64,000 bases of DNA from Fulvivirga ligni (lineage in GTDB: Bacteria; Bacteroidota; Bacteroidia; Cytophagales; Cyclobacteriaceae): contig NZ_CP089979.1 of assembly GCF_021389935.1 (NCBI RefSeq), positions 186,001 to 250,000 of the forward strand, read 5' to 3'. A program made the translations under genes and the position numbers. Positions 38,751 to 56,372 of this stretch are shown one piece after another. Every line of letters begins with the position of its first letter. Position 1 is the stretch's first letter. Below the pieces are notes generated by a model. It was not told where the DNA came from. It made no database searches and was given only the letters and a program-made list of their open reading frames with translations.

Positions 38751-41700
38751 TTAGTGATTTATGGCCACTTTAAATGTATCTGAAGAGCCTCCAACGTTGG
38801 TTTTCAGGATATAAAGGCCATCCTCAATTCCCTTCACGCTGAACTGAATTAATTGATAACTATTGACTAAACTGAACTCCTCCTGATACACCAGCTGTCC
38901 ATTGAGATTATAAAGGTAAATTTCAGCCTGCTGATCTGTTTTAGTTACCACTCTTAAAGACATTTGGTTATCAGCGGGGTTAGGCTGTGGAGCCAAAACC
39001 ACTACGTCGGCCGCCGATGCAGAGCTTATACAGATATTGTTATTGGCAGGATCACTATCCGATATACCGCTAATGACACTTTCAACATTAATACATAAAT
39101 AAGGGGCACTTAGCGAATTAATGGTCAAGTCTAATGTTATATTGCTTTGCTGCCCAGGTAACAGCTTCATTTTCTTCACCTGTTGTATAATGGCAGCATT
39201 ACCTAAATCTATTTCGACTTTGATACTATCTAATGATATGGTTCCATTATTTCTTAAGCCCAAGATAACCTGCCCATTTTGATAAAAAGCATTTACGATT
39301 TCTAACTCAAGATCAGGAAACAAAACATTGACTATCTGTCGAGCGGTGTCAGAACACTGATTTAAATCTGTAGCCACTAGTTCTACTGTATAGTCAGCCT
39401 CTTCGTTGAATGTATGTTGAGCATCTTCAGTAGTTAAAGTATCTTGATCAGAGAATGTCCATTGGTATGTACTGGCCCCTTCAGATTCATTAGTAAAGGA
39501 AACATCTAAGGGCGGAGCACCAAATGCTAAAGATGAAGTAAACGCTGCAATTGGCGATTTGAAGATTTGGATATTGGATGTAGCACTATAATTACACCCA
39601 TTTACAGTTTCCAATAATAGGTCAACATCATAAGCACCTTCATTCCCAAATGCATATCTAAAGGAAGAATCCTGACCAATTGTTTCGCCATCTAACAACC
39701 AGTTTCTAGACGCTACTGCATCTCCTACAAAATTGGTAATATCAGAAATAAGTGTTTGTGCATTATCACAATTAAGCTCTGTACTGACATTAATGTCTAG
39801 CAATGGACTGATCTGAATACTTTTATATAAAGTAGATGAGCACAGATTCTGAGAAGTAGCCGTGAGGCCAACATTATAGGTTATTGGAAAGTCAAAAGTA
39901 ATGCTCGGGTTTTGATCAGCACTAAACACACCACCCAAATCCCAGGCCCATGATGTGATACCTTGCCCGGGCACAGGCTCCGTTTCATCCAGAAATTTCA
40001 CTTCTTCACCTATACACAATTTATCATAACTGAAATCTACCTGCGGAGCTGGCTTAACATCTACAGCCCTTTCTGTTGAATCAGCACAGCCATTAGTAGT
40101 GGTGACCACCAGCTTTACATCGTAGCTGCCCTCTTCCTCAAAATTATGTACAGGATCACGGTCAGTAGAAAAATAACCATCATCAAAATCCCAACGCCAT
40201 GACTGCAGGTTAGCATCTGCCACCTGGCTCTGGTCTATAAGTTGCGTTAATGAGCCTTCACAAGATAGTTCATTACTAAACTGCACTTGGGGCAACTGAT
40301 AAACGCTCACATTCTTAGTAATATCAGACTGACAACCAACAGCATTAGAAACCATAAGTGTAACGCCATAGGTGCCTGCGGCGCTGTATTCAAATAATGG
40401 ATTTTCAAGATTAGAAGTATATCCATTTCCGAAATCCCAACTGTAGCTATCAATAGTACCTGTAGACTCATTTGTAAACTGTAGAGATTGTCCTTCGCAG
40501 TCATCATTCACCTGAAAAGATGGGATGGGGCCTTGCTGCACATTATTAACCACCTGTGCCGTTTCTGCTGAACATCCAGGAATACTAGCAATTAACTTCA
40601 CTTCCTGATCACCAGAAGTAGTAAATTCATAATTCAAGTCCCTGGTGTTGGAGATAGAATCACCCTCTATCTGCCATTCCCAGGAAATGTTACCATTGTA
40701 AACATCAGCAGTGTTATTAATAAAAATCTTAGCATCATTAGTACAAATGGGAGCAGCCGGCAGAGTAAAATCCGGTACAGGCTCATCATAGATAGTAATA
40801 TCCTTCTCCACAAAATTACTACAGCCATTAGAGCTTTCTACCGAAAGGTTCACTGTATAATCTCCAGCTGAAGAATACAGGTGACTTGGATTGGCAGTGG
40901 TCGAAGTATTGGAGTCTCCGAAAGACCAGTTGTAGGAGGTGATATCTCCGGAGCTGTTTATGTTACTGAATTGGACTGGAGTTGTGGAGCAGATGGTTTC
41001 GTTTGTGAGGTCTACGTCTGGGGCTTGGGAGTTTGTTATGGTGATGGTTTTTGTGATTTGGTCGGAGTTTCCGTTTTCGTCGTAGGCTGTTAGGGTTATG
41101 GGGTAGACTCCTGGCACTGAAAATTGTATATAGGGGTTAACTAATGCATTAGAAGTTCTTAAAGAGCTATAACACTGTCCTGAAAAATTAAATCGATATA
41201 AAGCAGAATTGGCAATTGATGTCATCAGTACAATAGGCTCATCTCTTTCTACTGCCGATAATGTTATAACATTGTCACTGCCAACTGATAGTTCCCTTAC
41301 GAATACCCAACCTTCATCTTCCTCAACTAAAACATCAATTCTATCCCCCAAATTAAGGACCAACAGAACATTTCTACCTTCATCCCTAATGAAAGAAATT
41401 CTATAAGGAGAGTTAAGATTATGATTTTCTAGAATAACATTCTCAACTAAAGGTGGTTGGTCTAAACCCTGGGTGAAAACGAGTTTTAATAACAGATTTT
41501 GGTCATTACTGACAACAAAAAACTCCCATATCCCATTTCTTTTTCTTTTAGATATGCTCTGAATTTTAGTGAGTCCATTCAAGCTAAAAGTATATTGACT
41601 TGTAGCTTGATTTAAAAAACCGTTGGAAAAGTTTACAACATTTATTTCACCGTTACTATTTTTAATGGTTATCAAAGTTTTTTGATCATCCTCATTAATT

Positions 41701-42296
41701 ACCTCAAGCGAGGATGTACCAGTCAATGGTGATGCTCCCTCAATAAAATCAAAACTTTCAAGAGATGATCCTACTTCTTGTCCGAAAAAGAGTCTACTAA
41801 CTCCAGATGTCCCCGATTCATTTGCGACAAAGCCAACCCACCTTCCATCTTCCTTAACAACTTTCACATCATTTGGAGAAGAAAATGATCCCCCGCTATT
41901 CGCTATAGCTTGAACTGAACTTATTGATTCCAAAAAATCATTTTCAAAGCTTACCTTTCTTAAAGAACCATTGGAGAAAAATACAGCAACTGAAGTATCT
42001 GGCAGTATTGCAAATGCATTTGAACGATAAACGTTGGAATTACCAATTGAAATGTTACTGTAATCATAGGTTAGCAAATGGGGGCTACAAAAATTCCATT
42101 TTAAGCTATCGTAATCACTGCTTTGGTTATTTATTAAAATATTTTGATTCAAACAAGAATTAGCCGGTAAAGAAAAGGATGCAACTTGTGCATGACCAAT
42201 AGTAGACAGGAACAATATATATGTGAATGCTACCAGTTCCTTAAACCAAGTAAGACCTTTACATTTATACCACCAGTGAATTATCTCTACTACCAT
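38751..42296 (-). CDS. Large PKD-repeat surface protein with T9SS sorting domain
   Basis: 1181 residues from the ATG at 42296; a TTG at 42323 would extend it further into the upstream gene. A signal-peptide-like segment (about 14-37, ending IGHAQ) precedes about 370 residues of repeated beta strands resembling propeller blades. About eight PKD domains follow (for example ITSYNWSFGDSNTSTTANPS), then a CARDB-like domain (PDLELEIVNAFYQNGQV) and a type A T9SS C-terminal domain (QPNPADNQMSLRVV, LYNLNGQLVYQEEFS, GLYILKTN). It should cross by Sec, then T9SS, and be anchored or released at the surface. It overlaps the last glycosyltransferase gene by 32 bases. A segment at about 40915-41112 has distinct codon use. 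Confidence 0.9.
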   Translation of the reverse strand: MVVEIIHWWYKCKGLTWFKELVAFTYILFLSTIGHAQVASFSLPANSCLNQNILINNQSSDYDSLKWNFCSPHLLTYDYSNISIGNSNVYRSNAFAILPDTSVAVFFSNGSLRKVSFENDFLESISSVQAIANSGGSFSSPNDVKVVKEDGRWVGFVANESGTSGVSRLFFGQEVGSSLESFDFIEGASPLTGTSSLEVINEDDQKTLITIKNSNGEINVVNFSNGFLNQATSQYTFSLNGLTKIQSISKRKRNGIWEFFVVSNDQNLLLKLVFTQGLDQPPLVENVILENHNLNSPYRISFIRDEGRNVLLVLNLGDRIDVLVEEDEGWVFVRELSVGSDNVITLSAVERDEPIVLMTSIANSALYRFNFSGQCYSSLRTSNALVNPYIQFSVPGVYPITLTAYDENGNSDQITKTITITNSQAPDVDLTNETICSTTPVQFSNINSSGDITSYNWSFGDSNTSTTANPSHLYSSAGDYTVNLSVESSNGCSNFVEKDITIYDEPVPDFTLPAAPICTNDAKIFINNTADVYNGNISWEWQIEGDSISNTRDLNYEFTTSGDQEVKLIASIPGCSAETAQVVNNVQQGPIPSFQVNDDCEGQSLQFTNESTGTIDSYSWDFGNGYTSNLENPLFEYSAAGTYGVTLMVSNAVGCQSDITKNVSVYQLPQVQFSNELSCEGSLTQLIDQSQVADANLQSWRWDFDDGYFSTDRDPVHNFEEEGSYDVKLVVTTTNGCADSTERAVDVKPAPQVDFSYDKLCIGEEVKFLDETEPVPGQGITSWAWDLGGVFSADQNPSITFDFPITYNVGLTATSQNLCSSTLYKSIQISPLLDINVSTELNCDNAQTLISDITNFVGDAVASRNWLLDGETIGQDSSFRYAFGNEGAYDVDLLLETVNGCNYSATSNIQIFKSPIAAFTSSLAFGAPPLDVSFTNESEGASTYQWTFSDQDTLTTEDAQHTFNEEADYTVELVATDLNQCSDTARQIVNVLFPDLELEIVNAFYQNGQVILGLRNNGTISLDSIKVEIDLGNAAIIQQVKKMKLLPGQQSNITLDLTINSLSAPYLCINVESVISGISDSDPANNNICISSASAADVVVLAPQPNPADNQMSLRVVTKTDQQAEIYLYNLNGQLVYQEEFSLVNSYQLIQFSVKGIEDGLYILKTNVGGSSDTFKVAINH

Positions 42297-43221
42297 ACTT
42301 ATTTGAATATCTCGGAATGTCAAAAAAAACTCTATACACGAACTTCCATCTAATTTTTACAATCCTAAAGTATCTTTGTCTTTCAATCTTAGACATTAAT
42401 GGTAAAAGAAAGATGGTAAATATGGAGTTAAAATATACCCCAATCACATACACCCAATATGCCTGATAACTGATCTTATACCAGTATAAAAAATCAGACA
42501 ATAAATTCTGATCATTAATGATGGTCTGCCTACTACTACCTCCTCCATAATGAACTACTGTTGATCTTTCACATAGCTTAATCCGGTAGCGGTCCTTAAT
42601 TCTATTCCTAAACCATTCTGTTTCTTCGCAGTACATAAAAAAATCAGGATCGAATCCTTTTGTCTCCTCAAACACAATCCTATCCAAAAAAATATAAGCT
42701 CCATACAATCCTCCGACCTCTGTAGAGTCAGCTTTAGGAAGTGCGTTAAGATACTTATAGAAAAATGGATTAGAATTAATTACCCCAATCTTAAATGCCA
42801 TCAAAACATCATCCCTTCTTCTTGAGAAGAAAGATCTTTGGGATGATAAATCACTATTTCTAATATCTGCCCCGTAAATTTTGTACTGCTTTTGATTTTC
42901 ATCAGCAAATGCCACAGCGTTGGTTAATACGTCATTTAAGAAATAAGTATCCGAATTTAACAACAAATAATATCTACCTTTAGCAAAATTCATCCCTTGA
43001 TTATTGGCTATGCCAAAACCAACATTCTTAGAATTTTGAATAAGCTTAATCATTGGAAATTTATTAACAAGTTCTTCACCTTCTTTATTTTTAGAGTTAT
43101 TATCAACAATAATAATCTCATATTTAACACCTAATGATGTATTCTCCACTATACTATTAATACATGCGGTAGTAAGGGGTAAAGTGTTATAATTAACTAT
43201 GATCACAGAAACATCAATCAT
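42265..43221 (-). CDS. Family 2 glycosyltransferase (rhamnosyltransferase-like)
   Basis: 318 residues. It starts MIDVSVIIVNYNTLPLTTAC, has VDNNSKN, NVGFGIANNQGM and the NSD metal site in LLLNSDTYF, a layout common in WbbL-type rhamnosyltransferases. A hydrophobic C-terminal stretch (about 265-285) may attach it to the membrane. It is the last glycosyltransferase of the leftward run, overlaps the sulfotransferase gene by four bases (ATGA) and is itself overlapped by the PKD gene. The sugar and acceptor are unknown. Confidence 0.88.
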   Translation of the reverse strand: MIDVSVIIVNYNTLPLTTACINSIVENTSLGVKYEIIIVDNNSKNKEGEELVNKFPMIKLIQNSKNVGFGIANNQGMNFAKGRYYLLLNSDTYFLNDVLTNAVAFADENQKQYKIYGADIRNSDLSSQRSFFSRRRDDVLMAFKIGVINSNPFFYKYLNALPKADSTEVGGLYGAYIFLDRIVFEETKGFDPDFFMYCEETEWFRNRIKDRYRIKLCERSTVVHYGGGSSRQTIINDQNLLSDFLYWYKISYQAYWVYVIGVYFNSIFTIFLLPLMSKIERQRYFRIVKIRWKFVYRVFFDIPRYSNKYGSRDNSLVV

Positions 43222-44048
43222 ATACTCAATGACTTCAATTGCTTGTAAATGTCAAATGCTTCCTTTAGGACCTTATTTTTGTTTTCATCCGAGGTCTTAT
43301 GCAGAATGTCTTCATCGTAAATTTCTTTAATCGTGGCTTTAATCTCTAAACCAATATTATCCTTTAACCACCGCACTAGTTCGTTCTCATTTCCAATAAA
43401 ATCATTTACTTCGGTTATTATTATGTCTTTGGGATTTTTATACTGGAAATCTATAATGCTTTTATTATATTCAATGTAAGTTTTTTGGAATGTTGAAATC
43501 CACTTATTCCTATTGAGATCTATATCGATATACCATGCTAATCTCTTAATTGGATTCCGGGTATAATACCATTTATTCTTACGTAATCTCTTATATAAAG
43601 ACTCTATCACCTCAATTGGATTTCTAAAAACAGCGACAACTTTAAGATTTGGAATATAATGCTCCTTTATATCATTCATGAATAGTGTAAACCGGGGTTC
43701 TTTCCATCCCCAAATTTCATGATTGTGGTTTCTTTCATTTATCAATCTAGATAATTCTATCTTATAATGATTAAATTTAAATTTATCACCCTCCAGAATA
43801 AGTCCTGTTGAGTGCAATCCCATTTTTGTCAGCTCATTACTCGATAATCTTAGAAAATCAAGATCTTCAAAATGACCATATTTATTATCACTATATCCAC
43901 TCAACAGCATATCACCCATAAATAGATTATTTTGATTAAGCCATTGAGAAACTAAAGAAGTTCCTGATCGATGCATCCCAGATACGAATAATACTCTATT
44001 ACTAGGTTCGCCTGCTATTACAGACTGAAAATTAGGAGAATCTATCAT
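43218..44048 (-). CDS. Sulfotransferase family protein
   Basis: 276 residues. The PAPS 5'-phosphosulfate loop is GMHRSGTS (residues 24-31), after beta strand RVLFVS. The 3'-phosphate-binding strand AVFRNPIEVIESL follows near 139-151, and GWKEPRF lies at 114-120. This is the layout of Sulfotransfer-type enzymes acting on glycans. Its place inside a glycosyltransferase run suggests it sulfates the exported glycan. It overlaps neighbours by four bases on both sides. Some related proteins have lost activity, so PAPS use needs proof. Confidence 0.8.
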   Translation of the reverse strand: MIDSPNFQSVIAGEPSNRVLFVSGMHRSGTSLVSQWLNQNNLFMGDMLLSGYSDNKYGHFEDLDFLRLSSNELTKMGLHSTGLILEGDKFKFNHYKIELSRLINERNHNHEIWGWKEPRFTLFMNDIKEHYIPNLKVVAVFRNPIEVIESLYKRLRKNKWYYTRNPIKRLAWYIDIDLNRNKWISTFQKTYIEYNKSIIDFQYKNPKDIIITEVNDFIGNENELVRWLKDNIGLEIKATIKEIYDEDILHKTSDENKNKVLKEAFDIYKQLKSLSI

Positions 44049-45232
44049 AGCTTATTTATTACCTGTTTATATACCCTTGTCAAATTCTCAATTGATCTGT
44101 ACTTCTTAGCCAATTGATTTGACACGTTATTAATCCTATCAACATTATAATCTTTAATAATTTGCTTTATTTCAAGAAAGTCTTCATCGGAAATATATTC
44201 TTCAAAGTCAACTACTTTACCCCCTCCTTTAACTTCCTCAATAATGGTTGAATCATCGCCAATTTGAGGTGACATAATGATAGGTAATCCATTTGCCCAA
44301 TATTCACCATTTTTTATTGGAGAAAATGCCATAGACCATCTAGTTCTTCGATGCAAGCAAAGTCCAAAATCAGCAACACTCAAATAATCTTTAACGGTGT
44401 AATGAGGTACATTTGTAATAAATACCATTTTCAAATCTATATGATGCTTTGATAATAGAGCATATAGTTCTGTTTTTTCCTGAGGAGTTAATATTATTAA
44501 GTAAACATTTTGTTGTTCAATAAAATTCTTAAATAGATTGAAGGCTACATCATCATAATATAAGCCGCCAAACTTCCCTACATATACTCCAACTACCGCC
44601 TCATGAGAAATCTTCATTTTTCTTCTTAACTCATTGCGAGCTTTATTACTAAACTGGAAACTTTCGCCATCTACGACGCAAGGAATAGCCTCGATATTGC
44701 TATTCCCGTAAGTATTTACTAAATAATCTTTATAACTATTAGAAACCGTAATTAATGTCTCTGCAGTTCGAATTTGTTTATACTCATAATACTTTTGAAT
44801 GAGGTATCTTATATCCCATTTTTTCCAAACATCACTAGCTGCCATATAACTTGAATGCGGCTCAAAAGACTCAACGATAAATGGAATTTTTGTCTTCTGC
44901 CAAATGAGATAACCCAGAGCCCCAGCGGGAGCACCTCGGCAAATAATCTTATCAAAATTCCACTCTCTACAAAGAAGGATTAGTTGTTTAGGCAAAACAT
45001 TAAAATCTCTTATTTTATCCCTAAAAAAACTTTTATATGGTGAATAAAATGGTTTATGTATTACTTTATCCAGCTCCCAATTACACTCAGCCTTTGCAAC
45101 ATTTCTTTCTATTGAAACATAAACAATATTCTGAACTACCTCAAACTGATTTAATACAGCTAAAGTAGGCCTTATACTGGCCTCACTCAACCCTTCATAG
45201 ACAGACCAGTACCCTATATACAGAATATTCAT
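44045..45232 (-). CDS. Family 4-type glycosyltransferase
   Basis: 395 residues with a GT-B layout: MNILYIGYWSVYEGLSEASI at the N-terminus, VVGVYVGKFGGLYYD at the start of the second domain, and KNGEYWANGLPIIMSP as the donor-binding EX7E-like region. It overlaps the sulfotransferase and the next glycosyltransferase gene by four bases each. Donor and acceptor cannot be told. Confidence 0.82.
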   Translation of the reverse strand: MNILYIGYWSVYEGLSEASIRPTLAVLNQFEVVQNIVYVSIERNVAKAECNWELDKVIHKPFYSPYKSFFRDKIRDFNVLPKQLILLCREWNFDKIICRGAPAGALGYLIWQKTKIPFIVESFEPHSSYMAASDVWKKWDIRYLIQKYYEYKQIRTAETLITVSNSYKDYLVNTYGNSNIEAIPCVVDGESFQFSNKARNELRRKMKISHEAVVGVYVGKFGGLYYDDVAFNLFKNFIEQQNVYLIILTPQEKTELYALLSKHHIDLKMVFITNVPHYTVKDYLSVADFGLCLHRRTRWSMAFSPIKNGEYWANGLPIIMSPQIGDDSTIIEEVKGGGKVVDFEEYISDEDFLEIKQIIKDYNVDRINNVSNQLAKKYRSIENLTRVYKQVINKL

Positions 45233-46041
45233 CTAAGTAATACGTTTAATGCCCTAAGCACTTTTCCTCTACCTAGATAGGATTTAAACATAATTTTTTT
45301 AATCCTTCTTAAGAGATATTTCAATTGAACCTGGTTGATCTCAGGCCAATGACATAAAATATTATATATATTAAAATATCCGTTTTCTAATGACGTTAAT
45401 GAGGACATGGCGGATTCATGACCTATTCTTCTTTTGTATATTACCTTGTCTGTGGATTTATATAATTTACCAGAACATATCGAAAGGTAGAACAATAGGT
45501 CCTCACCATGTGTAAGATTTTCGCGAAAGTTATAATACACATGAGCACTATTCTTAATCATCCAGGTTATTCCAAAAAAGCATTCTTCAGATAATTTTAA
45601 CAGACTATTAAATGGATCACCTTCAAATGTAGGAACATATTCTCTTACGACATTATCTACATTTTGATCAAAGATCTGAACACGCCCATCAACAAAATCG
45701 ACACGATCATCATCGAAAAAAACAGAAAGCCTATCCTTAATACTGTTAAAAGAAAGTAAATCATCGCTATCTAAAAAACAAAAATACTTTCCTCTCATAT
45801 TTTGTAGACCTACATTTCTAGCAGAACTAACTCCATTGTTACTCTTCTTAAAATAACAAATTCTTTCATCATTGAATAAATTAATAATTTCCTCTGATTC
45901 ATCGGTGGAACCGTCATTTATTATTAATAACTCCCAATTTGAATATGACTGACTTATAACCGAATTTATACTGTCATACAAAAAATCCCTGGCATTGAAG
46001 ACAGGCATAATGATTGTGACTAAAGGATTTCTGTCAAGCAT
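45229..46041 (-). CDS. Family 2 glycosyltransferase
   Basis: 270 residues, GT-A fold: PLVTIIMPVFNARDFLYDSI, LLIINDGSTDESEEI, SARNVGLQNMRGKYFCFLDS and the metal-binding DSDD. The C-terminal part is short and basic. Its start overlaps the preceding gene by 22 bases, so translation is probably coupled. Confidence 0.9.
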   Translation of the reverse strand: MLDRNPLVTIIMPVFNARDFLYDSINSVISQSYSNWELLIINDGSTDESEEIINLFNDERICYFKKSNNGVSSARNVGLQNMRGKYFCFLDSDDLLSFNSIKDRLSVFFDDDRVDFVDGRVQIFDQNVDNVVREYVPTFEGDPFNSLLKLSEECFFGITWMIKNSAHVYYNFRENLTHGEDLLFYLSICSGKLYKSTDKVIYKRRIGHESAMSSLTSLENGYFNIYNILCHWPEINQVQLKYLLRRIKKIMFKSYLGRGKVLRALNVLLR

Positions 46042-47090
46042 TCTTCAACTTCTTGAATTTTTCTCTCATATGAATTATCTGCTGCCAAGGATTTTCTTGC
46101 TAATATCAAATCTTCAGTATTGTGATTAGCTAGATTCTCAATTACTTCTCCAATTAATTGACACCAACTTTCAGAAGTTCTTGCCATATAAATCAAATCC
46201 TCAAAAGGCAAGTATTCCTTTGTATAAGAAGTAATTATAGGCTTCCCTACTGCCAAGTATTGCCAAAATTTATGCGGCGATGCATATGTCACATAATATT
46301 CTTTCGAATATGCCAACATCAGAATATCTGCAGCATTCAAATACGACCATAGTTCGGCAGGAGGAACAGCTTCTAAAAGATATGTATTTTCATAAGATTT
46401 AAAAGGTTCAGGAACAAAATCCATGTTACTCCCCAAAAAAATAAAATCTGTTTTAGGTTGACTTATTACGGCCTGCTGCAATAGGTTCCAGTCTATAAAT
46501 GGCATAGCCAAATTCCCCACGTATAAGGCCTTAATTCCGTTGGTCCCTGGAAGAGTAACTATGTCCGACGAATATTCTGAAAGATTTACTCCATGAGTAA
46601 TTAGATACGTATTTGTATTATACATAAAAAGCTTTTCTACAATATCAGGTATTACACCAAAACAGATTTTAGCAGTAGTTGCAGCTTGTCTAGTATTAAA
46701 ATCTTGATTCAAATCCACAATATGAGAGATACATAATACTTTTTCGGGTAACGCATAAAAATCAAAGAACACTGAGTTATCAAAAGACCATACAATGTCA
46801 AAATCAACTCCGCACAATTTTTGCAAATTATTGAATTTTATGCTGATAAAATAACGCTGCAGCCAGGTCGGAAGGAATCTAAGTCCTTTCACAAATCCTG
46901 AATAATTGATTATAAAGAGATCCTCATATCTAGAATTAGTAATCTTATACTTACTGCCAGAGGGGGGATTAAGAAAAAACACTTTATTCCCTTTTTTTGA
47001 CAAGTTAACTGCGTAATGGTGTTTTGAAACAAAAACATGATTCCAAGGTTCAGGAGAAATTAGTAAGATATTTTTGTTGGATAAGGTCAC
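46020..47090 (-). CDS. GT-B glycosyltransferase
   Basis: 356 residues. It starts at a GTG (47090); upstream codons run into a stop with no ATG. The N-terminal KNILLISPEPWNHVFVSKHH and later IKALYVGNLAMPFIDWNLL, FIFLGSNMDF and SPHKFWQYLAVGKPIITSY give a GT-B two-domain layout of the family 1/4 kind. It lies 5 bases after the next upstream gene. Confidence 0.82.
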   Translation of the reverse strand: MTLSNKNILLISPEPWNHVFVSKHHYAVNLSKKGNKVFFLNPPSGSKYKITNSRYEDLFIINYSGFVKGLRFLPTWLQRYFISIKFNNLQKLCGVDFDIVWSFDNSVFFDFYALPEKVLCISHIVDLNQDFNTRQAATTAKICFGVIPDIVEKLFMYNTNTYLITHGVNLSEYSSDIVTLPGTNGIKALYVGNLAMPFIDWNLLQQAVISQPKTDFIFLGSNMDFVPEPFKSYENTYLLEAVPPAELWSYLNAADILMLAYSKEYYVTYASPHKFWQYLAVGKPIITSYTKEYLPFEDLIYMARTSESWCQLIGEVIENLANHNTEDLILARKSLAADNSYERKIQEVEECLTEIL

Positions 47091-47095
47091 TATAA

Positions 47096-48205
47096 TTAAT
47101 TATTATCGATTATTGATTCCATCATATTTTTGTAAAGCGAGCCAATCTTTTGATGAGTATATTTAGAGGCATATGATTCCCTCTTCAAGTCATCACACTG
47201 AACACCCTTACAGAGAGCGTTGAACCAGTCTTCTTCACACCATGAAGACAACAACCACCCAGATTCACCTATAACCTCAGGTATTCCACCGATTTTGGGG
47301 GCAATTACCGTAGCCCCACAGCTAATAGCCTCCGCACAAACCACTGAGAAAGTTTCATAATTGGTAGGATGTAGAAATAGAGCGCACGTTTGCATCTTAT
47401 CTACAATCTGATTTTCATTCATTTTCCCCAAAAAAATAAGCCGCCCGTACTTATCATTCTTATTTTTCCATTGTATCATATCATCATACAATGTACCATA
47501 CCCTCCAATTTGCAACTCATACTTATTCTCATTTTTGCTGTTAAAAGCTACGAAAGCATTAAAAAGAGGGAAAGGATCCTTTGGTGGCTTCCATTGACTA
47601 AGCATAAAAAAAAACTCTCTTCTCTTTACTCTATTATTATTTAAAAAAACATTGTCTACAATATTAGGAACAATGAAAGAAGGGAAGTTAGCTCCAGAAA
47701 ACCTTTTTATATCTTCCGACAAAGCCTTTGAAACAGAAATCACCGGAATATTTTGTCGAAATATATGTTGTATCCTTGGTACATCATCTGCCGATGCCAT
47801 TCCAAAATTATTATGATAAGCACTCCAATGTTCAGTAATAACAATTGGTGTTTTCACCCACCTTTTAATCCAATGCCAATATGTTAAATTGGGATAAGCA
47901 ATATGAAAATTGATGATGTCGAACTTGCTTTTTCTCTCACGAAAAAGCACCAGAATTACCATCACAATCGCTATTAGTTCTAATAAAAACCAAGGTGTCA
48001 TTTGGGATGAAAAGAGATATTTCTTATTACCTAGCAATTCTTTTTTCCCAAAAGCTACTTCGAATAAACTTCGGGCTGATTCTACATGATATACTGTATT
48101 TTCACAGCCTACCAAATTTAAAGACTCAATATGCCTATAAATCCATAATGCGGTTTTTGGATTATTATAGGATGGATACCAAGAAGTAATGTGAAGTACT
48201 TTCAA
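47096..48205 (-). CDS. Family 4 glycosyltransferase
   Basis: 369 residues. The start is a TTG at 48205, giving the family-typical MKVLHITSWYPSYNNPKTAL; no ATG is nearby. Domain II shows GRLIFLGKMNENQIVDKMQT and the EX7E donor site in HPTNYETFSVVCAEAISCGA. It lies 2 bases after the upstream family 2 gene. Sugar specificity is unknown. Confidence 0.9.
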   Translation of the reverse strand: MKVLHITSWYPSYNNPKTALWIYRHIESLNLVGCENTVYHVESARSLFEVAFGKKELLGNKKYLFSSQMTPWFLLELIAIVMVILVLFRERKSKFDIINFHIAYPNLTYWHWIKRWVKTPIVITEHWSAYHNNFGMASADDVPRIQHIFRQNIPVISVSKALSEDIKRFSGANFPSFIVPNIVDNVFLNNNRVKRREFFFMLSQWKPPKDPFPLFNAFVAFNSKNENKYELQIGGYGTLYDDMIQWKNKNDKYGRLIFLGKMNENQIVDKMQTCALFLHPTNYETFSVVCAEAISCGATVIAPKIGGIPEVIGESGWLLSSWCEEDWFNALCKGVQCDDLKRESYASKYTHQKIGSLYKNMMESIIDNN

Positions 48206-48207
48206 AA

Positions 48208-49158
48208 CTAAAACAAACTTTTTCTAATACAATATTGTAAAGTTCGCCAATTGATAATATACCATGGCCTCTCTTTTACAGCATAAAGAGAATTTAGAAT
48301 AGCCTCTTTATTAAGACCGGAAAACATCAAGTTTTCGGCCTTTTTCCTGTAAAATAAAGAAGGGTCTTCTTCGAAAGGAATTTTTAATTCATTGATATAT
48401 CTAACCAGTCCAGACAGATCATTTTTTTCAATAGAGTCAGATTCAGAGTTTTTTCTTTCTTTAGCTAAAAACCTAACAATATCATGACCTAGAAATTGAG
48501 TAGGGTTTTTAAACCCCTTCGTCATCGCCGTGCCTACTGACCGATAGAGGTATAATGGCTGATGATAGTTTATATTACTCATCTTATATCCGCTTTCATT
48601 AATTCTCAACAACCAATCATAATCTTCACTGATAATTCCAAGCGGTTGAAGTTGTTCCCTAAAGCCCCCAACTCGTTTCAAAACTTCCCTCCTGAACATA
48701 ATAGAGGGCTTTTGAAAAAAATTACATTTTATCAATTCCTCTTGTATTCGAGCAGTATTCTCCTCCTGATTTAATTGTTTACGGATTATATTACCCTTTG
48801 GATCAATCACGGCATAATTAGTCCCAATCAAATCAAGTCCCTTATTCAGTCCTTCTAATTGTAATTCCAACCTTTTACAATGTGATACGTCATCAGCATC
48901 CTGAAAAGCTATAATATCACCCTCAGCCTTTTTAAAAAGAAAATTGATTGTCCTTTGATAACCGAGATTACTTGAATTTCTATAAACCTTAATTCTTTCA
49001 TCATAAATCTTCGATACAATTTCCCAGCTTCCATCAGTTGAGTGATCATCACATACAATCACTTCTAAATTATTATATGTTTGATTTAGAATAGAGACTA
49101 TTGACTCTTCAATAAAATTAGATGCATTGTATACAGGAATAATTACTGAAACTCGCAT
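48208..49158 (-). CDS. Family 2 glycosyltransferase
   Basis: 316 residues, GT-A fold with MRVSVIIPVYNASNFIEESI, VIVCDDHSTDGSWEI and the metal-binding DADD in IAFQDADDVSHCKR. It overlaps the FkbM gene by 16 bases. It resembles the family 2 enzyme two genes upstream in motif wording, so the two may be old duplicates. Confidence 0.9.
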   Translation of the reverse strand: MRVSVIIPVYNASNFIEESIVSILNQTYNNLEVIVCDDHSTDGSWEIVSKIYDERIKVYRNSSNLGYQRTINFLFKKAEGDIIAFQDADDVSHCKRLELQLEGLNKGLDLIGTNYAVIDPKGNIIRKQLNQEENTARIQEELIKCNFFQKPSIMFRREVLKRVGGFREQLQPLGIISEDYDWLLRINESGYKMSNINYHQPLYLYRSVGTAMTKGFKNPTQFLGHDIVRFLAKERKNSESDSIEKNDLSGLVRYINELKIPFEEDPSLFYRKKAENLMFSGLNKEAILNSLYAVKERPWYIINWRTLQYCIRKSLF

Positions 49159-49925
49159 AACTTTTTATTAACACCAAACACGGTTTCCCCCTTTGAATAT
49201 AATTGAAATCCAGCCTTACTTAAAAAGTCACAGATTTGAATTCGAGATGCAACTTCGTCATGGATTTCAATACATAAAAGCTTGGTCTTATCGATTACAT
49301 TAATAAATGAAGGTTCTTCAATAATTATTTTTTGTTCAGCTCCTTCAATATCAATTTTAAGCACATCTATTTCATGCCATTTGTGGTCTTTCAAAATATT
49401 AAAAAGTACTGCTGATTCGACCAATTCCAAGTCTGAATCGGATTCCTTAGCACTTAATGACCATGACTGCCCGTCCCTGAAAGTTCGATCTATAACAACC
49501 CCATCTGAATGAATCCAAAGCGCCTTGTTTACGACTATATGATCACTAAAACCAGTTAAGTTTCTTTTCAGCACCTGGAGGTTCTTACTATCCATTTCTA
49601 TGAGCATTAATTGTACGTGTGGATATTTTCTTAGAAAATACAAGCTTGTCAGGCCGATATTTGCACCTGCATCAACGAAATTCTTAACTGAACCATTTAA
49701 ATAATAATTTATGAGATGATTAAAAAACGAATATTCCTCGTCAATTAATACCTGTTTAAACACCCTATAATCGGATCCTGAATTCCTCAAGTAGATGGGT
49801 GAGTCGTTCCAGCAGAATTTTTCAGAATCTACTTTATATTCTTTCAGCTCTTCCCTCAGAAAAAAGTCTTTATCAATTCGCAGTATTTTGACGAGGACTC
49901 TTCTAACCACATCAATCAAATTCAT
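49143..49925 (-). CDS. FkbM family methyltransferase
   Basis: 260 residues. The SAM-binding motif NFVDAGANIGLTSLYF (residues 82-97) and the later LKIDIEGAEQKII are the FkbM signature. These enzymes often O-methylate sugars in surface glycans. It overlaps both neighbours (16 and 4 bases), so it belongs to the glycan operon. The target sugar is unknown. Confidence 0.9.
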   Translation of the reverse strand: MNLIDVVRRVLVKILRIDKDFFLREELKEYKVDSEKFCWNDSPIYLRNSGSDYRVFKQVLIDEEYSFFNHLINYYLNGSVKNFVDAGANIGLTSLYFLRKYPHVQLMLIEMDSKNLQVLKRNLTGFSDHIVVNKALWIHSDGVVIDRTFRDGQSWSLSAKESDSDLELVESAVLFNILKDHKWHEIDVLKIDIEGAEQKIIIEEPSFINVIDKTKLLCIEIHDEVASRIQICDFLSKAGFQLYSKGETVFGVNKKLCEFQ

Positions 49926-50917
49926 TTTTTATTAATTTCATGAATATTCAAAAATCTCTTTTTACTAGATATCAAGTTACGAATTTCAGACTTTATGGTA
50001 AGTAAGCTAATTTCCATAAAACAAACATAATTCTTGAAATCAAGAGGATTATTAGTAATTGATTTTACACTTAATAACCAACTATTCACATTAAGTCCCT
50101 GATGGTATAAATAATTAGCACCAAATCTAAATGGATATGAAGGATCTTTTATTGTTTTCTGCAGCAGTTCCAACTTAATATCTTCCAATTTTTCAAGATC
50201 GTTTATATTGGGAGTTCTTAATCTAATTCCATGCAATTTATATATTACGTCACTGTTGATTACTCTCTCATTATTAAAATAACCGATACTCTTTGTTAGT
50301 GAGGTTTTGCTCATCCTGTAATAATATAAGGGATCACGTAAATTCTTAGCCTTGAAGTAACCTATAAATCTTAAATTAAAATCAATGTCTTCTCCATGCG
50401 TGAAATTTCTATATAAAGGCCCTACTTTATCTAAAACTTTTATTCTTAATATCGTGGTAGGTCCATGAAGAGCCGGTTTCCTATCTTCCAAAAATGAACT
50501 GATCATTTCGCTATCAAGCGGCAAATTAGAGGTTGACATCAGCCTATTGCTCATGAATGAGATATAGTTTGACCCAACCATATCTATTTGACAATCATCA
50601 ACCAAAGCAGCTATCTGTAATTCGAACCGATCCAGACGAGAAATATCATCTGCGTCATGTATAGTTAAATATTGACCTCTGGCTTTTTCAATAAGCCTAT
50701 TTACCGTAGCAACTTTACCCCTGTTAAATTGATTATGACTTATAACTATTCGTGGATCAGTATATGAATCAATAATCTTTCTAGTTTTATCATTAGATCC
50801 ATCATCAGCGATTATTAGCTCAAAGTCAGTATATGTTTGATTTAGAACACTGTCAATAGCAGCACTGACATATCTTTCTGCGTTATATGCAGCCATTATC
50901 ACAGTTAATGAAGTCAT
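49922..50917 (-). CDS. Family 2 glycosyltransferase
   Basis: 331 residues: SLTVIMAAYNAERYVSAAID, LIIADDGSNDKTRKI, then YLTIHDADDISRLDRF with the DADD metal site. It heads the second part of the operon after an 82-base gap, the only real gap in the run, which shows no clear promoter. It overlaps the FkbM gene by four bases. Confidence 0.9.
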   Translation of the reverse strand: MTSLTVIMAAYNAERYVSAAIDSVLNQTYTDFELIIADDGSNDKTRKIIDSYTDPRIVISHNQFNRGKVATVNRLIEKARGQYLTIHDADDISRLDRFELQIAALVDDCQIDMVGSNYISFMSNRLMSTSNLPLDSEMISSFLEDRKPALHGPTTILRIKVLDKVGPLYRNFTHGEDIDFNLRFIGYFKAKNLRDPLYYYRMSKTSLTKSIGYFNNERVINSDVIYKLHGIRLRTPNINDLEKLEDIKLELLQKTIKDPSYPFRFGANYLYHQGLNVNSWLLSVKSITNNPLDFKNYVCFMEISLLTIKSEIRNLISSKKRFLNIHEINKK

Positions 50918-50999
50918 TCTAAAAATTATGGTTATTAGCCGTTTGTTTTAATACAAAAGGTGCTTTGAAAATTAATTGTAAATACTAATCGGAAGAAAA

Positions 51000-51935
51000 T
51001 TATAATTGAGGATCAAACCCGCTTTGCTTATATTTACTTACGATAGAGCTTCTTTTATTATATAACTCACGTTTCTCTCTGTAAAGCTTGAATCTATTTA
51101 TGGATTCAGTAAATTGTATTTTAAGTATAGCCTTAATTACATCTTCCAATCCCATAAATATTTCATTCTTTAAATCTTTAGAATTATAACTTTCAGATAT
51201 ATCTAACGCACAAACCTTGAATTTTTTAATAGCTATATGACGCTTAAAGTTTTTATCATTGTGTTTCCCTTCTCTATCTTCTGTATCATGATAGGCAAAA
51301 GAAGAAGGCACTAAACCCACCTTTAGATTAAAGTATTTAAGCCTTTGTAAATAATTATTATCCTCTCCATAATGCGGAAAATTTAATGAATCGAATAAAC
51401 CTACTAATTCGATTGTTTTAATAGGTATCAACCAAGCTGCTGCATTTATAAAATTAACTTCATAAACATTTTTTATAGGGTGTTTTAAAACTAAATCTGA
51501 ATAAAACTTTCTCCCTCCATCTGAAGGATTACTTATGAAAGTGCTGAAGAGAAACTCTAACATTTCGCCACTTGCGTTCAAATGTATTGGACTCAACACT
51601 CCATAATTTGAGTTTTCTTTGGCTCTCAACACCAAATTTTCGATGGTATCACTTCGAACCCAAGCATCATGATTGAGCAAAAAAACAAAATCAGAGCAAG
51701 AAGTTTGAGCAAGTTTCAGTCCTATGTTATTTGCTGCTGCAAATCCCAAATTTTCATCATTACTGATAAGAGTTATTTGTGGATAATTACTTTTTATAAA
51801 ATCAATTGTTTCATCATCAGATGCGTTATCCACTATTACAACGTTAACTTCTACTGTACTCGACAGTAAGCTATCGATACACTTTTGAATCCATTTAATC
51901 GAATTATAAGTTACAACTACGGCAGTAATCCTCAT
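51000..51935 (-). CDS. Family 2 glycosyltransferase (rhamnosyltransferase-like)
   Basis: 311 residues: MRITAVVVTYNSIKWIQKCI, VVIVDNASDDETIDFI, DENLGFAAANNIGLKLA and NHD in FVFLLNHDAWVRSD. The asparagine-aspartate site and later FPHYGEDNNYLQRLK fit the rhamnosyltransferase-like subgroup. The start overlaps the upstream methyltransferase stop by one base (TAATG). Confidence 0.88.
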   Translation of the reverse strand: MRITAVVVTYNSIKWIQKCIDSLLSSTVEVNVVIVDNASDDETIDFIKSNYPQITLISNDENLGFAAANNIGLKLAQTSCSDFVFLLNHDAWVRSDTIENLVLRAKENSNYGVLSPIHLNASGEMLEFLFSTFISNPSDGGRKFYSDLVLKHPIKNVYEVNFINAAAWLIPIKTIELVGLFDSLNFPHYGEDNNYLQRLKYFNLKVGLVPSSFAYHDTEDREGKHNDKNFKRHIAIKKFKVCALDISESYNSKDLKNEIFMGLEDVIKAILKIQFTESINRFKLYREKRELYNKRSSIVSKYKQSGFDPQL

Positions 51936-52699
51936 TAACGGTCAAACATTAATTTAAACTCATCAAAAGAAATCAAATTTAAAACCTCTTTACGACTCAA
52001 ACTCAATGCGGAGTATTCATAAAATTCGTCATCCATTGAGGTAGGCGCTCCAATATTTTTACCCTTTGAAATAAGACCAACCCCCCAATCTATATCAATA
52101 CAACAGCTGGATAAATCATCCATTTTCCTATACTTCACAAATGCCTTCCATGTCGATCCGTTCCAATACTTGTTCGCAGGCGTCCACTCATATGAATATT
52201 GATCCCTCGCATGCCATTCTGTGGGCGGGTTGCAATCATGTAATACAATAAACCCATCATCCTTTACATATCTTAAAGCATTAGAGATATCTCGATCAAC
52301 ATATGAAGCCAGATGCATACCATCTATAAATACTACATCAAATTTTATAGACTTCGATAATAGAGCTCCTTGATCCAACTGCTCGAAGAAATCATCACTA
52401 GTTAATTTAAAATCGACAGGGTTTTGGGTATATTCTAAACCAGGGTCCACACTATATTTAACATTTGCGTTAATTAAGGCAAAATTATCCTGAGGGTTTC
52501 TCACACCAATTTCAAGATACAATGTTTCTCGGTTTAATGATGCTAATAAGTGATTTATTACATCATATCGCTTTTTGTCACTAGTTACTTGATCTATAGA
52601 ACCTTTCTGAGCATCTAAATAATGCTTATTTTTAAACACAACTTCTTCGTAATACTCACCAAGCTTATATCTTCTATATAGTTTTTTAAAATATTTCAT
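51935..52699 (-). CDS. Class I SAM-dependent methyltransferase
   Basis: 254 residues. The pattern LYLEIGVRNPQDNFALINA, then YSVDPG, FDVVFIDGMHLASYVDRDI and GFIVLHDCNPP matches the Methyltransf_24-like group. The first glycine motif is short (EIGV), as usual for that group. It lies between the acetyltransferase (overlap of 4) and a glycosyltransferase, so it probably modifies the glycan. The substrate is unknown. Confidence 0.8.
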   Translation of the reverse strand: MKYFKKLYRRYKLGEYYEEVVFKNKHYLDAQKGSIDQVTSDKKRYDVINHLLASLNRETLYLEIGVRNPQDNFALINANVKYSVDPGLEYTQNPVDFKLTSDDFFEQLDQGALLSKSIKFDVVFIDGMHLASYVDRDISNALRYVKDDGFIVLHDCNPPTEWHARDQYSYEWTPANKYWNGSTWKAFVKYRKMDDLSSCCIDIDWGVGLISKGKNIGAPTSMDDEFYEYSALSLSRKEVLNLISFDEFKLMFDR

Positions 52700-53292
52700 A
52701 TTTTAGGAACTGACATCAAATACTCAATTTTTTCCTCAATTTTGGTCATGTCCCACTCCCACCAAGAATCTTGCAGAAGCCGAATAATTATTTCATCAGA
52801 AAATCTGCTTTTAATTTTTTTCGCCGGATTTCCTCCCCAAATCTCATAGTGACCGACATCTTTAGTTATTACACTGCCTGCTGCCAAAACAGCTCCATTA
52901 CCTACATTCACACCTGACATGATAGTAACACCTCTGCCGATCCAAACATCATTTTGAATAACAACGTCTCCATTCGTACTCGGATGCCCTTCTATATGAA
53001 AGGACTTTTCATGGAAATGAGGAATTTTATTAAATGGATAAGTCGTAATCCAATCATACCGATGATTTCCCCCTAAAAAAATAGTCACGTCATCGGAGAT
53101 CGAGCAAAACTTTCCAATATGTAAACTGGCGCCACTATCAGCAAATAGAACTGATGGTTTTCCATAAGTAAATTCTCCTATATGAAAATTATCATGAGTA
53201 AGAATTTCTCTTGTGAAAAACAGACTCTTCATTTCACTCTTTTTTCTGAATAGGTGGCTCAGGCGTGCTCTGATGTTGCTAAATAATTTCAT
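52696..53292 (-). CDS. CatB-like hexapeptide acetyltransferase
   Basis: 198 residues from the ATG at 53292; a TTG one codon earlier is less likely. Hexapeptide repeats of a left-handed beta helix run through about 50-165 (ASLHIGKFCSISDDVTIFLG; VVIQNDVWIGRGVTIMSGVN; GNGAVLAAGSVITKDV). The loop with NHRYDWITTYPF and the GGNPAKKIKSRFS segment are typical of CatB/xenobiotic-type acetyltransferases found in O-antigen loci. It overlaps the exporter ATPase gene by 14 bases. Confidence 0.9.
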   Translation of the reverse strand: MKLFSNIRARLSHLFRKKSEMKSLFFTREILTHDNFHIGEFTYGKPSVLFADSGASLHIGKFCSISDDVTIFLGGNHRYDWITTYPFNKIPHFHEKSFHIEGHPSTNGDVVIQNDVWIGRGVTIMSGVNVGNGAVLAAGSVITKDVGHYEIWGGNPAKKIKSRFSDEIIIRLLQDSWWEWDMTKIEEKIEYLMSVPKI

Positions 53293-54460
53293 CAAACTTT
53301 ATAATACCAACATTAAAATCTTCTAAATGTGATAATTTCTTTGAGTTCTCTTGAACTTCAAATTGACAACATTCTTCAACTTTGTCATACACTTCTTGAC
53401 CTGGTTTATACAATATTAGATTTAAATAATACTGCCCTTTATTAAAAATTTCACTTGAAAATTTCACCATGAACTCTTTCTCATCCGAACTAATAACTTT
53501 ATCTAGTGCACCAACTGCGACATTATCATAATTAAAAACCCTTAGTAATAAGTGTAAACTATCATCCAGAACCTTCTTATTAACAGTTACTTTAACTATA
53601 AGCAACTTTTGTCCTGAATGATCTGTAAAATCTAAATGAACTCGTTTGATATAATTTACTTCTTCCGAAAATGAACCCTCCGCATTAAATTCATGGGTAT
53701 TATGCTGATTGCCGATAGACATGTATTTATTTAATACATCTCCTATCTTGCTAGACATCTCCACATTGCCATTATGGAGTAAAATCCCCTTGGTGCAAAG
53801 ATGCCTGATAGAAGAAAGGTTATGACTAACAAACAAAACAGTCCTCCCCTCATTCTTGCTAACCTCATCCATTTTACCGAGACACTTTTTCTGAAATTCA
53901 GCATCCCCTACAGCTAAAACCTCGTCTACAATCAAAATTTCTGGTTCCAAATGAGCTGCCACACTAAAAGCAAGACGGACTTTCATGCCTGAGCTATAGT
54001 GCTTTACAGGTGTATCTATAAACTTCTCCACACCACTAAAGGCCACAATCTCATCGAACTTGGCTTTAATCTCAGCCCTTTTCATTCCTAATATGGTACC
54101 ATTAAGATAAATATTTTCTCTACCACTAAGCTCCATATGGAAGCCTGTACCAACTTCGAGTAGAGAAGACACTCGACCATTAATTTCAAACCTACCAGTT
54201 GTGGGTTCGGTAATCCTGCTGAGAATTTTCAAAAGAGTACTTTTACCGGCACCGTTTCGACCTATGATACCTACAGCTTCACCTTTTTTTATCTCAAAAT
54301 CTATATCTCTCAGTGCCCAAAAATCTTCTTTGGAACTATTGCCTTTACCAAATAAGCTTGACAACTTAGTTCCAAAAGCACTTCTGAAATCGCCTTCTTT
54401 TTTATGGCCAATTTCATATTTCTTTCCGAGCCCTTCGACTTTTATTGCTATATCTCCCAT
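53279..54460 (-). CDS. Polysaccharide ABC exporter ATPase with C-terminal domain (Wzt-like)
   Basis: 393 residues from the ATG at 54460 (MGDIAIKVEGLGKKYEIG); an ATG at 54472 would add four residues and overlap the permease gene. Walker A GRNGAGKST lies at residues 67-75, the signature YSSGMKVRLAFS and Walker B ILIVDEVLAVGD follow. The residues after about 255 form an extra beta-rich domain, as in Wzt proteins, where it recognises the modified chain end before export. It pairs with the permease one base upstream. Confidence 0.92.
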   Translation of the reverse strand: MGDIAIKVEGLGKKYEIGHKKEGDFRSAFGTKLSSLFGKGNSSKEDFWALRDIDFEIKKGEAVGIIGRNGAGKSTLLKILSRITEPTTGRFEINGRVSSLLEVGTGFHMELSGRENIYLNGTILGMKRAEIKAKFDEIVAFSGVEKFIDTPVKHYSSGMKVRLAFSVAAHLEPEILIVDEVLAVGDAEFQKKCLGKMDEVSKNEGRTVLFVSHNLSSIRHLCTKGILLHNGNVEMSSKIGDVLNKYMSIGNQHNTHEFNAEGSFSEEVNYIKRVHLDFTDHSGQKLLIVKVTVNKKVLDDSLHLLLRVFNYDNVAVGALDKVISSDEKEFMVKFSSEIFNKGQYYLNLILYKPGQEVYDKVEECCQFEVQENSKKLSHLEDFNVGIIKFDEII

Positions 54461-54461
54461 A

Positions 54462-55289
54462 TTAAACCACATCAGCCATTATCCGCTCTACCTTCTTAAA
54501 GTAAAAGAGCGATGATATAAACAAAATAATTATTATTGAAAAAGAAATCAAGCTATATACTGATGGGGCTTGTTGTCCAAGCAAAGTCCACCTGAACCCT
54601 TCAATGACACCTACCATAGGATTAAGATAGTACAATATGCTAGCCCAATCAGGAAGATTATTTATTACTAGGGAGGAGGGATATCCTACTGGAGTAGCAT
54701 ATAACCCAAACTGCACAAGAAATGGGACCACATGCTTAAAGTCACGATAACGAATGGTTAATGCACTCATCCAAATACCAACTGCCAAAGCTGATATTAT
54801 GGTCATTATTAAAAATAAAGGAAAATAAACGATATTAATTGAAGGGGTGAACCCATATACCATCATTAATACAATCACCAAAAATAACCCAATGCAAAAG
54901 TCCACCAGCCCTACTACTGCTTTAGATAAAGGGATTACCAGGCGAGGGAAATATATTTTCTTAACCATCTCCTGAGCAGAAATGATGGAATCTCCCGCTT
55001 GTGCTAGTACAAAAGCAAAATAACTCCAGGCGGCCATTCCTGAAATAGCAAAAAGAGCATAGGGCACACTGCCCGTATCTACTTTAATCGCCTTCCCAAA
55101 TACCAAGATAAATATTAGTAGAGTTGCTAATGGCTGAATAACAACCCAGATAAGACCCAGAGCTGTCTGAGCATATCTCACCCTCAGATCTCTGTAAGCT
55201 AGTATTAAAAATAAGTCTTTATATTGAAATAATTCTTTAAGATTTAGGCGTAAACCTTTTTTATTTGCATCAACGATTAACTTATGCAT
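54462..55289 (-). CDS. Polysaccharide ABC-2 exporter permease (Wzm-like)
   Basis: 275 residues. NLKELFQYKDLFLILAYRDL, then VRYAQTALGLIWVVIQPLAT, is the hallmark of ABC-2 O-antigen/capsule permeases. About six membrane spans follow, and the C-terminal SILYYLNPMVGVIEGFRWTL is typical. It exports lipid-linked glycan across the inner membrane with the Wzt-like ATPase. Its ATG abuts the ATG of the divergent glycosyltransferase gene within one ATGCAT hexamer. It is the first gene of the leftward glycan operon. Confidence 0.93.
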   Translation of the reverse strand: MHKLIVDANKKGLRLNLKELFQYKDLFLILAYRDLRVRYAQTALGLIWVVIQPLATLLIFILVFGKAIKVDTGSVPYALFAISGMAAWSYFAFVLAQAGDSIISAQEMVKKIYFPRLVIPLSKAVVGLVDFCIGLFLVIVLMMVYGFTPSINIVYFPLFLIMTIISALAVGIWMSALTIRYRDFKHVVPFLVQFGLYATPVGYPSSLVINNLPDWASILYYLNPMVGVIEGFRWTLLGQQAPSVYSLISFSIIIILFISSLFYFKKVERIMADVV

Positions 55290-56372
55290 TCTAAATCAAT
55301 TCTTTTTATAACTCCCTACCCTCAAGGACAAGCCCCAAGCCAACGCTTCCGCTTTGAACAGTATCTCCCAATCCTAAAAAAGAATAATCATCAGTTTAAG
55401 ATCTCCCCATTTTTGACTAAAAAGGCCTGGGATACACTCTACAAAGATGGTAAAATCATTTCCAAGTTGTATTATTTTTTTCAAGGTTTTGTAACCCGTT
55501 TGATTGATATTGTTCGGACACCTTATTATGACTTCATTTTTATACACAGAGAAGCAACACCTGTAGGGCCCCCATTTTTTGAATGGATAATCTCAAAAAT
55601 ATTAAGAAAAAAAATAATCTACGATTTTGATGATGCTATATGGCTTGAGGATCCAGATGAAAAAGGCTCAATCAAAAGCATGGTGAAATGGAAAAGTAAA
55701 GTAAGTTCCATTTGTAGATGGAGTTATAAGGTAAGTACCGGTAATGAGTATTTGGCAAAATATGCCGCTAATTTTTGCACAAACGTCATTATTAATCCCA
55801 CTACAATTGACACCGAACACTTACATAATCCAGATATAACAGTGAACCCTAAAAACGATGAAAATTTAGTTATAGGCTGGACTGGAACACATAGCACTTT
55901 ACAATACCTGAATCCGTTGGTTCCGATTATAGCTGAGTTAGAAGAAATTTTTGACTTTAACTTTATTATTATTTCAAATAAAGCTCCTTCGTTCAAGCTT
56001 AAATCACTAAAATTTATTCCATGGAACAAAAACACTGAAATTAAAGACCTACAACGTTTCGATATTGGAGTCATGCCCTTAACAAATGATTTATGGTCAC
56101 AAGGAAAATGCGGATTTAAAGCTCTTCAATACATGGCCTTGGGTATACCTGCCATAGCATCGCCAGTTGGAGTAAACTCCCTAATTATAGATGACAATGA
56201 AAATGGATTTCTTTGCCATACCAGGGAAGAATGGAAGAAAAATATAGAGACACTAATTATCAATAAGGATAAAAGAAAGTTATTTGGCAGATCAGCTAGG
56301 AAAAAAGTTGAGAATTTTTATTCAGTATCTTCCAATTCAGACAACTTCCTATCCTTATTCTCTTTGGAGTAA
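55284..56372 (+). CDS. Family 4-type glycosyltransferase
   Basis: 362 residues, GT-B fold. It starts MHSKSILFITPYPQGQAPSQ directly at the first beta strand, has IYDFDDAIWLEDPDE, VIGWTGTHSTLQYLNPLVPI and a donor site around CGFKALQYMALGIPAIASPV. It reads rightward, away from the exporter, and its 3' end overlaps the convergent membrane-protein gene by 55 bases. It probably acts in the same glycan pathway. Confidence 0.87.
   Translation: MHSKSILFITPYPQGQAPSQRFRFEQYLPILKKNNHQFKISPFLTKKAWDTLYKDGKIISKLYYFFQGFVTRLIDIVRTPYYDFIFIHREATPVGPPFFEWIISKILRKKIIYDFDDAIWLEDPDEKGSIKSMVKWKSKVSSICRWSYKVSTGNEYLAKYAANFCTNVIINPTTIDTEHLHNPDITVNPKNDENLVIGWTGTHSTLQYLNPLVPIIAELEEIFDFNFIIISNKAPSFKLKSLKFIPWNKNTEIKDLQRFDIGVMPLTNDLWSQGKCGFKALQYMALGIPAIASPVGVNSLIIDDNENGFLCHTREEWKKNIETLIINKDKRKLFGRSARKKVENFYSVSSNSDNFLSLFSLE

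Follow-up and report, generated by a model that had tools for sequence, protein, structure and literature searches.

A predicted PAPS-dependent sulfotransferase gene in an ABC-exported glycan operon of Fulvivirga ligni

Here, we examined a window of 64,000 nucleotides (positions 186,001 to 250,000 of contig NZ_CP089979.1) from the genome of the marine bacterium Fulvivirga ligni, a 6.52-Mb single contig, in which a gene for a 276-aa protein of the Sulfotransfer_3 family lies in an operon for an ABC-exported glycan. We consider that this protein is probably (probability about 0.8) a cytoplasmic PAPS-dependent carbohydrate sulfotransferase that sulfates an O-antigen- or capsule-like glycan before it leaves the cell. 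The family and fold of the protein, its conserved PAPS-site residues, the place of its gene in the operon and a supply of PAPS encoded in the same genome all bear on this reading. So do the repeated finding of homologues next to ABC exporters and the polymorphism of the locus among related species. It would be an ordinary enzyme, of a type already known and in a familiar kind of setting, and the trait is one that is under-documented in the phylum.

The sulfotransferase gene and its operon

The sulfotransferase gene occupies 43218–44048 on the minus strand, with its ATG at 44048 and its stop codon ending at 43218; the coordinates given in an initial annotation of this DNA, which omitted the strand, were exact. 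The overlap with glycosyltransferase genes on both sides that was claimed there amounts to 4 bp in each case, and both overlaps read ATGA: 44045–44048 is shared with a GT4-type gene upstream (44045–45232) and 43218–43221 with a GT2 gene downstream (42265–43221). Sulfotransferase identity had also been proposed, and membership of the Sulfotransfer_3 family is supported, the protein scoring 32.6 bits against the Pfam profile PF13469 (cut-off 27). It falls just under the cut-off for Sulfotransfer_1 (21.4 bits, cut-off 22), and no NCBIfam model matched it.

The ABC-exported glycan operon of the initial annotation is real and includes the sulfotransferase gene. It lies on the minus strand and extends from the gene for a Wzm-like permease (54462–55289, ABC2_membrane) down to position 42265, where the GT2 gene ends. 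The permease gene is followed by one for a Wzt-like ATPase with a C-terminal extension (53279–54472), identified by ABC_tran and a weak match to Wzt_C that lies below the cut-off of that model, and the two make up a polysaccharide ABC exporter. The remaining genes encode a hexapeptide-repeat acyltransferase (52696–53295), two methyltransferases, one of the Methyltransf_24 type (51935–52699) and one of the FkbM family (49143–49925), the sulfotransferase, and eight glycosyltransferases or glycosyltransferase-like proteins. Five of the eight are GT2 enzymes (51000–51935, 49922–50917, 48208–49158, 45229–46041 and the last gene of the operon at 42265–43221, the latter two assigned with Pfam) and two are of the GT4 type (47096–48205, Pfam; 44045–45232, Pfam and NCBIfam), while the eighth (46020–47090) has weak matches to Glyco_trans_1_2 and TuaH. 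A divergent GT1/GT4-type glycosyltransferase gene on the plus strand (55284–56372) forms a conserved end of the locus.

Scans for promoters and terminators gave results no better than those from shuffled controls, as might be seen if the gene or the whole operon were silent or decaying and the cell surface received no sulfate from it. However, the reading frames are open, the residues discussed below are conserved, and Fulvivirga sediminis, which among named relatives is the nearest at this locus, retains the whole gene set at about 93–97 % identity, including a 95 %-identical sulfotransferase in the same operon. We find a silent or decaying operon barely credible.

PAPS-site residues and fold

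In a review of polysaccharide sulfotransferases, the working definition comprises a Lys or Arg in the loop, a Ser in the 3′-phosphate helix (PB-helix) and the sheet fold, and the catalytic base is given as His or Glu (PMC11625862). The PAPS loop of the window protein is GMHRSGTS (residues 24–31), which is the Arg rather than the Lys form. When 16 homologues with identities down to 21 % were compared, G24, M25, H26 and S28 of the loop were invariant, as were E61, K116, P118, R119 and R142, and R27, T30, S150 and R154 were retained in at least 90 % of the set. Hence, the loop is not a chance motif, and the intact PAPS loop noted in the initial annotation is borne out by this conservation, as are the PAPS-site residues. 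K116, P118 and R119 form a KxPR motif, R142 and S150 constitute the predicted 3′-phosphate site, and E61 is the candidate catalytic base. The AlphaFold model of the protein is confident (pLDDT 85.3, pTM 0.85) and places a strand at 135–141 followed by a helix at 144–157, corresponding to a strand–turn–helix 3′-phosphate site with the conserved Ser.

A single-sequence search of the PDB with the window protein returned no match, and profile and fold searches were therefore used. The profile search against solved sulfotransferases reached an E value of 0.012 at best, which is below significance, and the relation in sequence to the solved enzymes is marginal. Profile alignments with tyrosylprotein sulfotransferases bring the Arg-Ser-Gly of the loop into register, along with the K, P, R and S positions. 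When Foldseek was used to compare the model with the PDB, 36 of the 37 matches at E ≤0.001 were sulfotransferases and the other was an adenylate kinase (best E value 7.6e-07). The top matches, all with a probability of 1.00 and TM-scores of about 0.4–0.54, were to PAP-bound tyrosylprotein sulfotransferases, the sulfotransferase domains of CurM and an olefin synthase, and mycobacterial Stf proteins. TM-scores near 0.5 support membership of the superfamily and say nothing about the acceptor or substrate.

PAPS supply and the context of homologues

The initial annotation had proposed a search of the genome for PAPS synthesis genes, and this search located cysQ, cysC, cysD and cysN together at about 1.226–1.230 Mb (L029:10195–14963), each above its NCBIfam cut-off. 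They lie outside the sulfotransferase operon, about 1 Mb from the window (0.186–0.250 Mb), and are directly preceded by a wecA-like gene (Glycos_transf_4), with which a different polysaccharide operon ends. A second APS-kinase match in F. ligni was weak (L002, 24 bits) and was set aside, since by eye it looks like a P-loop protein of the gluconate-kinase type.

A CC...CxxC pattern of cysteines is typical of APS reductases. The two CysH-like proteins of F. ligni carry these cysteines, which would leave PAPS for sulfation, and PAPS may thus be made mainly for that purpose and not for sulfate assimilation; we put this no more strongly because these two proteins are not resolved into APS or PAPS reductases by the NCBIfam models.

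With these enzymes, CysD/CysN and CysC would make PAPS, and the neighbouring glycosyltransferases would assemble a lipid-linked glycan in the cytoplasm. The window protein would then transfer the sulfuryl group from PAPS, the presumed donor, to a hydroxyl of a sugar in this glycan (O-sulfation), and the sulfated product would be exported by Wzm/Wzt to become an O-antigen- or capsule-like polymer at the surface, while the by-product PAP would be cleared by CysQ. The uses put forward in the initial annotation for such a polymer, namely adhesion, phage resistance or calcium binding, are candidate roles. A supply of PAPS does not by itself assign the window enzyme, as F. ligni has two other Sulfotransfer_3 genes on G000:C1, one near 2.709 Mb and one near 5.952 Mb, the former within a second surface-polysaccharide region. 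They are not close paralogues, since the window protein matched only itself when compared with its own genome. These two genes are the ones at L031:9032–9925 and L032:10001–10924, and one of them is apparently solitary.

Among 147 related genomes, 84 include Sulfotransfer_3 matches and 99 a strong match to APS kinase (CysC). Both were found in 80 genomes, Sulfotransfer_3 alone in four, CysC alone in 19 and neither in 44, so that APS kinase is present in 80 of the 84 genomes with Sulfotransfer_3 compared with 19 of the 63 without it. The direction of this co-occurrence is clear, although the Fisher p value of 8e-18 ignores shared ancestry and should not be taken at face value. Partial, weak APS-kinase matches in three genomes (G099, G047 and G068) were rejected, the one in G099 being, by eye, a signal-recognition-particle GTPase.

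A scan of the genome contigs with a degenerate pattern matched only F. sediminis. In three genomes of the same order (G097, G021 and G073), homologues of the window gene adjoin wzm/wzt or share an operon with them. In another (G144), an APS kinase gene (195 bits) is followed by a different sulfotransferase gene and then, third in the run, by the homologue. Two further homologous domains (L017 and L018) are within longer proteins that also include, as judged by eye, GT2-like glycosyltransferase sequence.

These contexts bear on whether a PAPS-dependent enzyme encoded here might act on something other than the operon polymer, such as a lipid, a protein or a small molecule, with its place in the operon reflecting shared regulation or cassette transfer. 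Enzymes acting on each of these acceptors are found in the sulfotransferase families, tyrosylprotein sulfotransferases head the fold search, and a PAPS-dependent enzyme of Bacteroides sulfates cholesterol (PMC10932419). However, the gene overlaps a glycosyltransferase gene by 4 bp on each side, its homologues recur in the glycan loci of other genera, and homologous domains are fused to GT2-like sequence, and we regard a different acceptor as unlikely.

Beyond the genus, the closest homologue (40 % identity) is found in G097, a single-contig genome from another family, where it lies in a similar operon and is one of eight Sulfotransfer_3 matches. No recognisable CysC, CysD or Sat was found in this genome (L034 and L085), and hence PAPS use by this sulfotransferase family is not proven there. 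An APS-reductase-like CysH is present in G097. Either the assembly lacks the sulfate-activation genes or they went unrecognised, or PAPS is obtained in some other way, or the proteins are not all PAPS-dependent. Strains lacking APS kinase have been reported in a paper on Flavobacteriaceae genomes (PMC4755562). The case of G097 somewhat lowers our confidence in a PAPS-dependent sulfotransferase and, together with the lack of an NCBIfam match and the weak sequence relation to solved enzymes, it is what would be expected if the fold had been kept for another job, such as some other nucleotide-dependent transfer or a structural one in the glycan assembly complex, with no sulfate added. Against this, the loop Arg, the Arg and Ser of the 3′-phosphate site, Lys116 and the acidic residue are all retained at 21–40 % identity, Sulfotransfer_3 co-occurs near-completely with APS kinase, and in G144 the APS kinase gene is two genes upstream of the homologue. 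Another job for this fold therefore seems to us improbable, and sulfation of the operon glycan remains the preferred reading.

Polymorphism of the locus and known sulfated polysaccharides

Retention of the ends with a variable interior is the usual behaviour of O-antigen and capsule loci. The glycan locus of F. ligni (42265–57661) was compared with those of F. sediminis and of four congeners in which Wzm is well conserved (G005, G009, G012 and G013), and here too the outer genes are kept and the interior varies. The genes for a TPR protein, a membrane protein, Wzm and Wzt are retained on one flank. On the opposite flank, wherever the available stretch extended that far, those for a PKD protein, an Lrp-type regulator and others are kept. 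In G005, whose Wzm is 93 % identical, both the window sulfotransferase gene and the adjacent GT2 gene are missing, and the same ABC glycan locus includes a gene for a different Sulfotransfer_3/Sulfotransfer_1 protein (L102:18767–19462). A homologue of the window gene was not found in the stretches read from G009, G012 and G013. This resemblance to O-antigen and capsule loci points to sulfation as a surface trait that varies.

Next to the glycan locus, 38751–42323 encodes a PKD-repeat protein whose Por secretion tail is a type IX secretion signal. It shares 71 % identity with its counterpart in F. sediminis and 45 % with that in G005, whereas the Lrp-type regulator and a phosphoribosyltransferase encoded beside it are about 90–95 % identical, as if it had diversified along with the glycan locus. 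One could go further and propose a species-variable, sulfated glycan resembling an O-antigen or A-LPS, with the sulfate exchanged as a cassette (the close relative G005 carries a different member of the sulfotransferase family), and with a possible part in anchoring type IX-secreted proteins, given the position of the Por-tailed protein next to the locus and its greater variation relative to its neighbours. The surface would then bear an exchangeable trait facing phages and ions, but we attach little credence to this extended proposal.

The initial annotation held that sulfated LPS or capsule is rarely described in Bacteroidota, and this agrees with a limited search of the open-access literature, in which we found no sulfated surface polysaccharide of this phylum with a proven structure. 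The gene family is nevertheless common in the relatives of F. ligni. A survey of mat genomes that applied a BLAST criterion reported no sulfotransferase gene in its Bacteroidetes genomes (PMC9723792), and as the profile used here detects the family in more than half of the relatives (84 of 147), the capacity may be under-counted. Work on marine Bacteroidota has dealt with them as organisms that degrade sulfated algal glycans. If these bacteria also make sulfated surface polymers, there would be a link between the sulfate that they set free and the sulfate on their own surface. The locus also offers a natural comparison between close species with and without the sulfotransferase gene at the same site.

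In comparison with known systems, the window protein shares with PF13469, the family that includes NodH, a profile match above the cut-off, the RSG loop and the R...S 3′-phosphate site; NodH itself was found via PF13469 by its RXG loop motif (PMC11625862). It is, however, a weak and divergent member with no characterised close relative. The PAP-bound structures of TPST1 and TPST2 are the best fold matches and their loop and 3′-phosphate residues align with those of the window protein, but the sequence identity is only about 12 %, and TPST1 and TPST2 are eukaryotic enzymes that act on protein tyrosines, whereas the window gene has no peptide-acceptor context. The closest likeness in gene arrangement is to marine Gammaproteobacteria, where sulfated capsules from ABC-type clusters with PAPS genes are established (PMC11641403, PMC11766843). 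In Vibrio sp. KMM 8419 and in Cobetia marina KMM 1449, the cluster for the capsule includes an ABC transporter, glycosyltransferases, sulfotransferases and PAPS genes, and the sulfated polymers of these strains were solved by NMR (PMC11641403, PMC11766843). The F. ligni locus, from another phylum, has in common with them an ABC-exported glycan cluster that includes glycosyltransferase and sulfotransferase genes, with a PAPS supply in the genome. As its PAPS genes lie outside the cluster, about 1 Mb away, it represents a looser version of the same arrangement.
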